DNA of 49,189 bases from Chloroflexota bacterium (lineage in GTDB: Bacteria; Chloroflexota; Limnocylindria; Limnocylindrales; CSP1-4): the NCBI GenBank assembly GCA_021802585.1, contig JAJZRQ010000006.1, forward strand, positions 1-49,189, in the 5' to 3' direction. Shown here piece after piece: positions 34,181 to 36,955 of the stretch. The first letter of the stretch is position 1, and each line of letters starts with the position of its first letter. Under the pieces are notes generated by a model, which did no database searches, was not told the origin of the DNA, and worked only from the letters and a program-made list of their open reading frames with translations. A program made the translations under genes and the position numbers.

Positions 34181-34260
34181 GGTGCCGCCCCAGGCCACGC
34201 TCGGTAGGCTTGATGGCCACGGCGGAGCAGCTCAGTGGTAGAGCAGGGGACTCATGAGCC
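34181..34260 (+). repeat. Decayed copy of tRNA promoter and tRNA 5' half
   Basis: These 80 bases align without gaps to 36841-36920 with about 10 mismatches. They include the -10 (TAGGCT for TAAGCT), the acceptor 5' strand, the D arm and the anticodon loop CTCATGA. Similarity stops at the end of the anticodon stem (about 34261), where the next segment begins. The 3' half of a tRNA is missing, so it cannot give a functional tRNA. Confidence 0.85.
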
Positions 34261-34321
34261 CGCCCATCTATCCGCTGTGGTTTGCCGAGTGGGAACTGAT
34301 CGGGAATGTGCTCACTTATGG

Positions 34322-34365
34322 GCTCTATCGGCAGCCAACTCAAGAGCACATAACTCCGATAGAGC
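34322..34365 (-). terminator. Hairpin downstream of the toxin gene, possible terminator
   Basis: GCTCTATCGG (34322-34331) and CCGATAGAGC (34356-34365) form a perfect 10-bp stem with a 24-base loop, 70 bases past the toxin stop on the minus strand. There is no T-run, so termination is tentative; the rest of 34262-34435 shows no gene. Confidence 0.35.
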
Positions 34366-34435
34366 GCACACGTGATTCGGCGGAACTTCTCGCTCGAACA
34401 CCGGTCCGCCAGACGCAACACCAGCTCTTCATCGT

Positions 34436-34843
34436 CTACTCCCTTGGACGCGATCTCGCCTCGTCGAGCCGTCGACGCGCTTCGTCGGCATCGAGCTCGG
34501 CGATCTGCTCGCGAGTCAGGCCGATCTCGCGCTCGAGGGCCAGCGCGAGCCCCAGCGGCAGCGACGGCGGGGCAGGTTCTGGCGCCGGGCTCGGTCGAGG
34601 CGCCGGCGCCCTGGTCCGGAGGACTTCCCAGAACTCGGACTCACTCAGGCGAAGTTGGTCGGAGAGGATCGCGTTGAACCGCCCCGGGCTCATGGTCTTC
34701 GAGCCTGAGCGGGACGCGTGGGTCCGGAGGATTTCGCCGTCCGAGAGGGTCTTCTCGAAGAAGTCGTGGCCGGTGGCCCGATCCTCCTCCCAGTGGTCGT
34801 GCTTGAGAAACTCGCGGAACTCGTCCCAACTGGGCGTTCTCAC
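34436..34843 (-). CDS. Putative HicA-like toxin with C-terminal extension
   Basis: This 135-aa protein has a core of about 75 residues (WDEFREFLKHDHWEED, ATGHDFFEKTLSDG, LRTHASRSG) following the HicA/YcfA layout: a helix, a basic GH near the catalytic-His position, beta strands and then a helix. HicA toxins are small RNA-cleaving double-stranded-RNA-binding folds of 50-80 aa. Here a Pro-rich linker (about 78-95) and a helical tail (LALEREIGLTREQIAELD) follow. The GTG start overlaps the antitoxin stop (GTGA), typical of a toxin-antitoxin pair. Codon third positions are less GC-biased than in neighbours, a sign of transfer. The family is inferred by eye; another RNA-binding or regulatory protein is possible. 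Confidence 0.68.
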   Translation of the reverse strand: MRTPSWDEFREFLKHDHWEEDRATGHDFFEKTLSDGEILRTHASRSGSKTMSPGRFNAILSDQLRLSESEFWEVLRTRAPAPRPSPAPEPAPPSLPLGLALALEREIGLTREQIAELDADEARRRLDEARSRPRE

Positions 34844-35304
34844 CGAGCGGTGATGGCCGCACGCTCCGGCTCCGGTTCGTCGACCCCGAGCATCCGACGC
34901 TGCTCATCCTCGTCGGCGAGTGCGAACCGAAGGATGGCCGCGGCGTGAACGCCTCGGCTCGTCGCCAGGAACCGCGCCGGCTCACGGAAGAAGCGCGTCG
35001 CGTAGGCGTGGAGCTCAACGAGGAGATCGTCGATCGCTTCGTCGAGGGTCTCGCCGAAGCCGAGGACGCCCATGTCTGGGACACGCAGGGTCACCTCATC
35101 CGCGTCGTAGACGGCCTGGACGTCCAGGCGGTGCTCGCCGAGCATCGCCACGAGATCGTCCGGCCGGACAAGCAGCATCTGCTCCTTGCCATGATGGCGC
35201 GACACGATCCGCGGCTGATGACCGTGGAAGACCTGCGTCATCACGTCTGAGAGCTGGCTCTTGGCCGGCGAGAAATCGATGGTCGGGACGGGAGGAGTCG
35301 CCAT
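34840..35304 (-). CDS. Putative hybrid Phd/HicB-type antitoxin
   Basis: This 154-aa protein has residues 8-55 (FSPAKSQLSDVMTQVFHG, IVSRHHGKEQMLLVRPDDL) following the Phd/YefM antitoxin N-domain that binds operator DNA. Residues about 65-105 (DADEVTLRVPDMGVLGFGET, LDEAIDDLLVELHAYA) follow a HicB partial RNase H-like domain, which blocks HicA toxins. A helical tail ends it. The gene precedes and overlaps the toxin gene. GGAGGAG lies on the opposite strand near the start and is not its RBS. Repeated TGGTC sequences just upstream are a likely autoregulatory operator. The domain mix is seen only at motif level. Confidence 0.7.
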   Translation of the reverse strand: MATPPVPTIDFSPAKSQLSDVMTQVFHGHQPRIVSRHHGKEQMLLVRPDDLVAMLGEHRLDVQAVYDADEVTLRVPDMGVLGFGETLDEAIDDLLVELHAYATRFFREPARFLATSRGVHAAAILRFALADEDEQRRMLGVDEPEPERAAITAR

Positions 35305-35311
35305 GACCGCA

Positions 35312-35340
35312 GCCTAGACCAGATTGGTCAATGTGGTCAA
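35312..35340 (-). promoter_or_regulatory. Operator/promoter of the toxin-antitoxin operon
   Basis: GACCA (35317-35321) and TGGTC (35325-35329) form an inverted repeat. TGGTCAA occurs twice in direct orientation (35325-35331 and 35334-35340). On the minus strand TTGACC followed 18 bases later by TAGGCT gives a plausible promoter inside these repeats, just before the antitoxin ATG, as expected for self-repression. Confidence 0.55.
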
Positions 35341-35396: not shown

Positions 35397-36728
35397 ATGG
35401 CGGCGACGAAGGTTGATGCGGCGGTCGCGGCGATCGAGCGCCAGGATCCGAGCTTCGGCGAGTGGGCGCAGGTCGCCGCCGACGGCCTGACCGCGGGCGA
35501 GGGCGAGGAGATCCTGACGCAGGCGGGCGTCCAGGACTTCCTCTGGTACCGCCTCCCGGCCAAGTACCCCGACGAAACCTGGCTGCCGATCGCGCGCGCC
35601 ACGGTCGCGCTTCTGGAGGAGCTGGGCCTCGATCGCTATGCCGCGATCGCCGGGTCGGCAACGACGAGGACCGTCCTCGAGGCGTGGACCGAGGACGATA
35701 CGCGAGGTGTTGCCCGCTACCGGGTAGCCGCCGAGGCTTCGGGCGTCAAGCCTCCGGATACCGAGCTGCTCGAGTGGGGCTCGGTGATGGGGCTCGATGA
35801 GGCTTCTGCCTACTCCCGGATGGAGTGGGAGCTCGAGCGGGCGATCGTCGCCGGCGCGCTCGTGCCGGGCTCCTCCGGATGGAAGTCACGGGCCGCGTCG
35901 CTGACCGAGCATGCCCTGCGCGGGACGGCGCCACGCGGGCCCGGGCGAAGCTGGCATCAGCTGATCATCGAGGAGCGGATCAGGATGTGGGTCGAAGTTG
36001 CCCATCCCGAAGAACTTCGCCGCTGGCGCGAAGCACGCGCCGGCATGTTCATCGATCCGTCCCGCTCGCCCGAGGATCAGGAGCCGGTCATCGCTCCGAT
36101 CCGGTGGCTGCTCCAGGCGTGCCGCGCCGGTGTCGAATTGACGCAGAGCGGCTATCTGCCCCCGCCGATCGTGCGCGATGGGGTCGAGCGCTTCGGCTGG
36201 TGGGAGTGGCATGGCCAGCCCCGATCGGAGGCGGACGTCCACCAGCTCGGCGCCCTTCGCGAGACCGCCACGCGTCTCCGGTTGGTCACGAAGCGCGGTC
36301 GAAGGCTCGCGACCTCACGACAGGGCCGCGCGCTGGTCGATGATCCGTCCGCGCTGTGGCGGTCCATCGCGACGACCATCGGCGCCACGGATGACTACGC
36401 GGCAATGCTGAGCGAGCTCATCGCCCATCGGCTGCTCGACGGCCCAGCGATCGCCGACGCGCTCGAGCAGGCGATCGTGCCCATCGTGACGGCCCAGGGC
36501 TGGCGGTCTGGCGGCCTACCGGTGGACGAGCGGCAGATCGTCCTGTCCGTGCATCGGCCCCTCTACTGGTGGCGGCTCTTCAGGCTGCTCGACGAGGTCC
36601 GACCGCGGTGGATCGACGGTCACCCGACCGGGCCGAACGTCACGTCGCTCACCGTGGCGGGCCGGGCGGCGGCTGTGGAGTATCTTCGGGCACGGGCCAC
36701 GGCCCCGCGCAAGAGCCTGCACACGTGA
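35397..36728 (+). CDS. 443-aa conserved-looking protein of unknown function, accessory region
   Basis: No family is assigned with confidence. The protein is soluble, with no signal or membrane helix. The N-terminal region is helical (WAQVAADGLTAGEGEEIL, LWYRLPAKYPDETWLPIARA). The C-terminal half contains ELTQSGYLPPPIVRDGVERF, ETATRLRLVTKRGRRLATSR and GRALVDDPSALWRSIA, which resembles the winged-helix tail of actinobacterial proteins annotated as plasmid pRiA4b ORF-3-like. ATG 35397 gives the natural start. It diverges from the toxin-antitoxin operon across about 90 bases. Base composition is less extreme than in core genes. It lies between the two tRNA copies, so it probably arrived with them. 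Confidence 0.75.
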   Translation: MAATKVDAAVAAIERQDPSFGEWAQVAADGLTAGEGEEILTQAGVQDFLWYRLPAKYPDETWLPIARATVALLEELGLDRYAAIAGSATTRTVLEAWTEDDTRGVARYRVAAEASGVKPPDTELLEWGSVMGLDEASAYSRMEWELERAIVAGALVPGSSGWKSRAASLTEHALRGTAPRGPGRSWHQLIIEERIRMWVEVAHPEELRRWREARAGMFIDPSRSPEDQEPVIAPIRWLLQACRAGVELTQSGYLPPPIVRDGVERFGWWEWHGQPRSEADVHQLGALRETATRLRLVTKRGRRLATSRQGRALVDDPSALWRSIATTIGATDDYAAMLSELIAHRLLDGPAIADALEQAIVPIVTAQGWRSGGLPVDERQIVLSVHRPLYWWRLFRLLDEVRPRWIDGHPTGPNVTSLTVAGRAAAVEYLRARATAPRKSLHT

Positions 36729-36840: not shown

Positions 36841-36920
36841 GTTGCCGCTCCCAGTCACGCTCGGTAAGCTTGGTCGCCACGGCGGAGTAGCTCAGTGGTA
36901 GAGCAGGGGACTCATAAGCC
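36841..36920 (+). repeat. Right copy of the 80-bp tRNA-associated direct repeat
   Basis: Partner of 34181-34260. It comprises the promoter and 5' half of the intact tRNA gene. Between the two copies lie a toxin-antitoxin operon and the 443-aa gene but no integrase. Confidence 0.85.
36842..36870 (+). promoter_or_regulatory. Promoter of the CAT-anticodon tRNA gene
   Basis: TTGCCG (36842-36847), a 17-base spacer and TAAGCT (36865-36870) place the transcript start about four bases before the tRNA. In the left copy the corresponding hexamers are GTGCCG and TAGGCT, consistent with decay. Confidence 0.55.
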
Positions 36921-36955
36921 CTTGGTCGGTGGTTCGAATCCGCCCTCCGCTACCA
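36881..36955 (+). tRNA. tRNA with CAT anticodon (probably elongator Met) including encoded CCA
   Basis: The 75 bases fold as a cloverleaf. Acceptor GGCGGAG/CTCCGCT pairs with a G1-U72 end, D arm GCTC/GAGC, anticodon loop CTCATAA, T arm GGTGG TTCGAAT CCGCC, discriminator A and encoded CCA. G1-U72 and the D-loop sequence argue against initiator tRNA, which has an unpaired C1. Ile2 (CAT read as lysidine-AT) is the alternative. The anticodon stem GGGGA/GCCCT has an A31-G39 mismatch where Met tRNAs usually pair. A damaged copy of the 5' half lies 2.66 kb upstream. Confidence 0.93.

Follow-up and report, generated by a model that had tools for sequence, protein, structure and literature searches.

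A probable Class 6 hicBA toxin–antitoxin operon and its tRNA-Met context in a Chloroflexota genome

The gene pair at 34436..35304 of the window, the whole 49,189-nt stretch of Chloroflexota DNA analysed here, can be read with high confidence as an intact type II toxin–antitoxin operon of the Class 6 hicBA kind. Both genes lie on the minus strand with the antitoxin first: hicB runs from an ATG at 35304 to a TGA at 34840 (154 aa) and hicA from a GTG at 34843 to a stop at 34436 (135 aa), and the hicA start is set within the hicB stop in a GTGA overlap (34840..34843) that couples the translation of the two. The antitoxin-first order and the GTGA coupling, both put forward in the original prediction, are direct readings of the DNA, and the same order recurs in relatives. 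In codon-evolution comparisons with three relatives, dN/dS is 0.08–0.10 for hicB and 0.09–0.14 for hicA, and both are therefore real, selected genes. PADLOC returned no match.

This architecture has been catalogued before. In Gerdes 2024 (mBio; PMC10865869), HicA domains are sorted into 14 contexts, where Class 5 comprises hicBA pairs whose antitoxin is of the Phd/YefM-HicB type, and Class 6 adds to these a C-terminal HicA Shared Domain of 55–60 aa with three helices and conserved prolines before it; in the parts of that account drawn on here, Class 6 genes often overlap, belong mostly to Actinomycetes, with other phyla also represented, and have been modelled as HicA2B2 complexes. Because the same architecture is described there, the window pair is a further Class 6 example, and the suggestion of an under-described class does not hold, the antitoxin being also covered by PF12910 and a structure of this type, PDB 3k6q, having been solved. 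The pair fits every testable point of the class as set out in that source (antitoxin first, overlapping genes, an N-terminal Phd/YefM part on HicB, prolines and a tail on HicA), and nothing essential differs from it, the window pair coming from Chloroflexota; the tail is likened to the Shared Domain by size, position, prolines and helices, and not by direct alignment. Class 5, as defined in the same source, shares the Phd/YefM-HicB antitoxin in first place and HicA in second, but its HicA has no tail. RelBE pairs with a Shared Domain, also described there (PMC10865869), are reported to bear a tail of similar kind on the toxin and to have an antitoxin with Phd/YefM, whereas their toxin core is RelE and not HicA; across 301 Chloroflexota genomes, a search with the tail profile turned up no toxin of RelE type, and the matches of that profile outside the HicA family (E about 3e-4 or worse) look like chance. 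Classical hicAB (Classes 3–4, as in E. coli and B. pseudomallei) shares with the window the dsRBD-like HicA core with its catalytic His and the partial RNase H half of HicB, but differs in having the toxin first, an HTH or RHH domain at the HicB C-terminus and a HicA without a tail, whereas in the window the antitoxin comes first and its DNA-binding Phd part is N-terminal. No experimental study of any Class 6 pair was found in the literature searched.

The antitoxin is, from its sequence profiles, a Phd/YefM N-terminal half joined to a HicB-type half, in agreement with the composition originally proposed for it; along the protein (34840..35304, minus strand) a Phd/YefM part at about residues 6–57 is followed by a partial RNase H domain of HicB type at about 63–108 and by C-terminal helices. 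In Pfam, residues 9–137 match PF12910 (PHD_like) over the full length with E 2e-14, and residues 9–61 match PF02604 (PhdYeFM) weakly, with E 6e-4. A profile of nine relatives aligns over its whole length (residues 6–136) with PDB 3k6q at E 1e-10, this being the Syntrophomonas wolfei protein SWOL_0700, solved in 2009 and described as a putative toxin–antitoxin antitoxin, and the same profile matches E. coli YefM (2a6q) at E 2e-7. The HicB half emerges in hhalign, where residues 64–108 align with classical HicB, represented by a reference set of proteins from Chloroflexota genomes, with a probability of 75% and a score of 31.9, against scores of at most 16.7 across 30 column-shuffled profiles; when cross-checked against HicA, the same half reaches a probability of 0.3%. 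Foldseek with the low-confidence AlphaFold model of HicB ranks 3k6q first (E 0.016) and has the HicB structure 6g1c among its weak matches.

The toxin (34436..34843, minus strand) is supported by profile comparison as a divergent HicA with a proline-rich linker and a helical tail, as had been proposed, with a dsRBD-type core at about residues 6–77, the linker at about 79–96 and a Shared-Domain-like tail at about 97–133. Taken alone, the window protein matches the HicA family PF07927 weakly, at E 0.024 and 15 bits against a Pfam cut-off of 27 bits; this weak score, the absence of any HicA match when Foldseek was run with the low-confidence toxin model, and the Pfam text, which describes PF12910 as a RelE/RelB-type antitoxin, would all be in keeping with a Phd-type antitoxin joined to a small toxin of unrelated origin (RelE-like, for instance, or of another fold) whose resemblance to HicA is superficial. 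Against this, PF07927 is matched by nine of ten homologues (best E 4e-5), and two of them at most match any other family; hhalign aligns core residues 7–62 of the family profile with classical HicA at a probability of 94% and a score of 41.6, where shuffled controls stay at or below 14.5 and 1%, and places H26 of the toxin on the catalytic His of the classical GSH motif; and half of the antitoxin is of HicB type, with which HicA naturally pairs, all of which leave the unrelated toxin quite improbable. Searches of Pfam and NCBIfam gave no match of the toxin to Fic/Doc or YoeB families, and a sequence-only search of the PDB gave chance-level or unrelated matches.

In the divergent HicA so identified, the Gly of the GSH motif is absent from the window protein, and H26 is kept in all 22 Chloroflexota loci. 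In the HicA proteins of B. pseudomallei and the gonococcus, toxicity depends on the His of this motif, with His24, and also Gly22, found to be required (PMC3969222, PMC12297915). The tail, originally put at 55 residues, comprises 57 from about residue 78, with prolines at about 79–96 and three helices predicted by AlphaFold at 97–107, 111–115 and 119–131 with a pLDDT of about 80. The core is modelled poorly (pLDDT about 50–55), and the HicA fold therefore rests on the profile evidence and not on the model; the two AlphaFold models, both of low confidence (mean pLDDT of 59 and 49), drew on five similar sequences, too shallow an alignment to judge the HicA fold.

The two genes also occur together in relatives. 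The distribution of the toxin is patchy: profile searches recover it from 19 of 400 genomes of Chloroflexota and from 14 of 397 in a second phylum, the one to which a MAG titled Cellulomonas belongs. The antitoxin stands directly upstream on the same strand at 20 of the 22 Chloroflexota loci and is likewise present at eight of ten in the second phylum, which provides the conserved co-occurrence expected of a true pair. The four-base overlap is present at half of the paired Chloroflexota loci (10 of 20, the window included), and the active-site His is kept in the paired copies of the second phylum. Two toxins of that phylum (L197 and L199), both with no detectable antitoxin, have this His replaced by D or Q, a loss that would be expected if the His is what makes the toxin dangerous. 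No relative of the pair was found on viral contigs or on plasmids at the search sensitivity used.

Various stages of decay are also seen. In G005, a genome of the same genus, hicA (L027 4001–4405, the same as L005 1501–1905) has an in-frame TGA at residue 98, between core and tail, which would leave a Class 5-like toxin lacking the tail beside an intact antitoxin; broken hicBA copies occur in G005 (contig C50) and in G246, and orphan toxins in both phyla. Such decayed relatives, whether stopped before the tail, broken or orphaned, and a window segment that carries no integrase could suggest that the locus itself is a degenerate remnant, a non-working pair carried as passenger DNA of an element, but the window has two unbroken reading frames whose dN/dS lies near 0.1, and it retains the operator, the GTGA overlap and the active-site His, so that a remnant is very improbable and an intact operon is the preferred reading.

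Upstream of hicB, the coding strand reads TTGACCA-CA-TTGACCA-ATC-TGGTCTA-GGCTGCGGTC-ATG, and the predicted operator (35315..35340, minus strand) comprises two direct TTGACCA half-sites (35340–35334 and 35331–35325) and an inverted TGGTCTA (35321–35315), the three half-sites that had been anticipated. These hold their position in relatives despite diverged flanks, and across ten upstream regions of 80 nt TGACCA/TGGTCA occurs 17 times against 0.4 expected. A promoter is predicted beneath the operator (35311..35340, minus strand), in which the first TTGACC could act as the −35 box, with TAGGCT, 18 nt further on, as a −10 box that leaves six bases to the ATG. A consensus promoter scan upstream of hicB found none. 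Read by eye, a −10-like hexamer ends 6–7 nt before the start codon in the window and nine relatives, and this spacing suggests a leaderless transcript, which would be repressed by HicB. In a clade formed by L009, L010, L012 and L034, GTAC-type repeats are found upstream of hicB instead of the TTGACCA half-sites, a replacement which suggests a joint change of operator and Phd half in that clade.

The operon lies in a segment related to tRNA-Met. An att-like direct repeat of 62 bp (34200..34261, plus strand), made up of about 20 bp and the 5′ half of tRNA-Met up to the anticodon stem, is 92% identical (E 1e-18) to 36860–36921, which overlaps the intact tRNA-Met (CAT) identified by ARAGORN at 36881..36955 (plus strand), the inferred integration site. 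The repeats bound a 2.66-kb segment, with a G+C of about 0.65–0.71 against 0.75 for the window, that contains hicBA and a 443-aa ORF (35397..36728, plus strand; 465 aa from a start at 35331). This ORF, divergent from hicB and apparently co-cargo of the segment, has no match in Pfam; G010 has a homologue with 52% identity, and an element of G012 contains a remnant of it. Beside the tRNA fragment, what appears to be the conserved end of the mobile segment (34262..34377, plus strand), with TTATGGGCT / CATAACTCCGATAGAG arms, aligns over about 110 bp among the window, G011, G012 and G014 (two copies). The same tRNA-Met fragment is found in these three genomes and in G009, and in the three it is cut at the same point as in the window or a few bases off. 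The ftsH region downstream of tRNA-Met is conserved in G008, G011, G012 and G014, and the tRNA-Met site is therefore a shared chromosomal locus.

A tyrosine integrase (PF00589; E 9e-31 for the G012 copy) begins about 105 bp away from the 5′ end of the tRNA in G012 and G008; in G011 the contig breaks off within the beginning of this integrase, and in G009 its first ~35 residues are left just upstream of hicB. In G023, 187 bp separate the start of hicB from an intact tRNA-Met. Integrase remnants were looked for within the window and none was found. Together, the simplest reading of this context is that toxin–antitoxin-bearing elements have inserted into tRNA-Met, an integration hotspot, and the hicBA operon is probably cargo of such a tRNA-targeting element. 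A more detailed scheme, to which an even chance is given, is that small Chloroflexota elements dependent on a tyrosine recombinase enter the anticodon stem-loop of tRNA-Met, provide the tRNA with a fresh 5′ half and promoter while the former 5′ half stays behind, and stack toxin–antitoxin cargo at one chromosomal site, members such as the integrase-less 2.66-kb one being moved in trans. The cargo of the G012 element includes an AbiEi protein and an HTH/PIN pair. Other toxin–antitoxin-like or nucleotidyltransferase pairs (DUF6247 with a small protein, AbiEi, HTH/PIN, AbiEi/AbiEii-like and DUF6036) adjoin tRNA-Met fragments or hicBA at L089 (6712–7593), L087 (4503–6208), L090 (771–2808) and L094 (1328–2807).

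By analogy with known HicAB biology, HicA would act through His26 as a translation-independent mRNA interferase, which would be blocked when the partial RNase H half of HicB docks on the dsRBD-like toxin core. HicB would dimerise through its Phd half and bind the TTGACCA half-sites, thereby repressing the operon, and a fall in the labile antitoxin, upon infection, stress or loss of the element, would free HicA to cut mRNA and arrest growth. The tail may extend outward from the complex, where binding to a partner or target is probable, and the position of the operon in a small segment inserted at tRNA-Met points to a likely role as anti-phage cargo, element-retention cargo, or both, to the benefit of host or element.

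The window pair and its relatives firmly extend the range of Class 6 hicBA to Chloroflexota, where it has many copies. To the account of the class, as far as it is represented by the parts of Gerdes 2024 used here, they add features that can be tested: a conserved TTGACCA operator that overlaps what is probably a leaderless promoter, two copies with no detectable antitoxin in which the active-site His is gone, and the link to a tRNA-Met integration site. What the HicA tail does, a question singled out in 2024 as worth experiments (PMC10865869), could be probed on the compact window pair.
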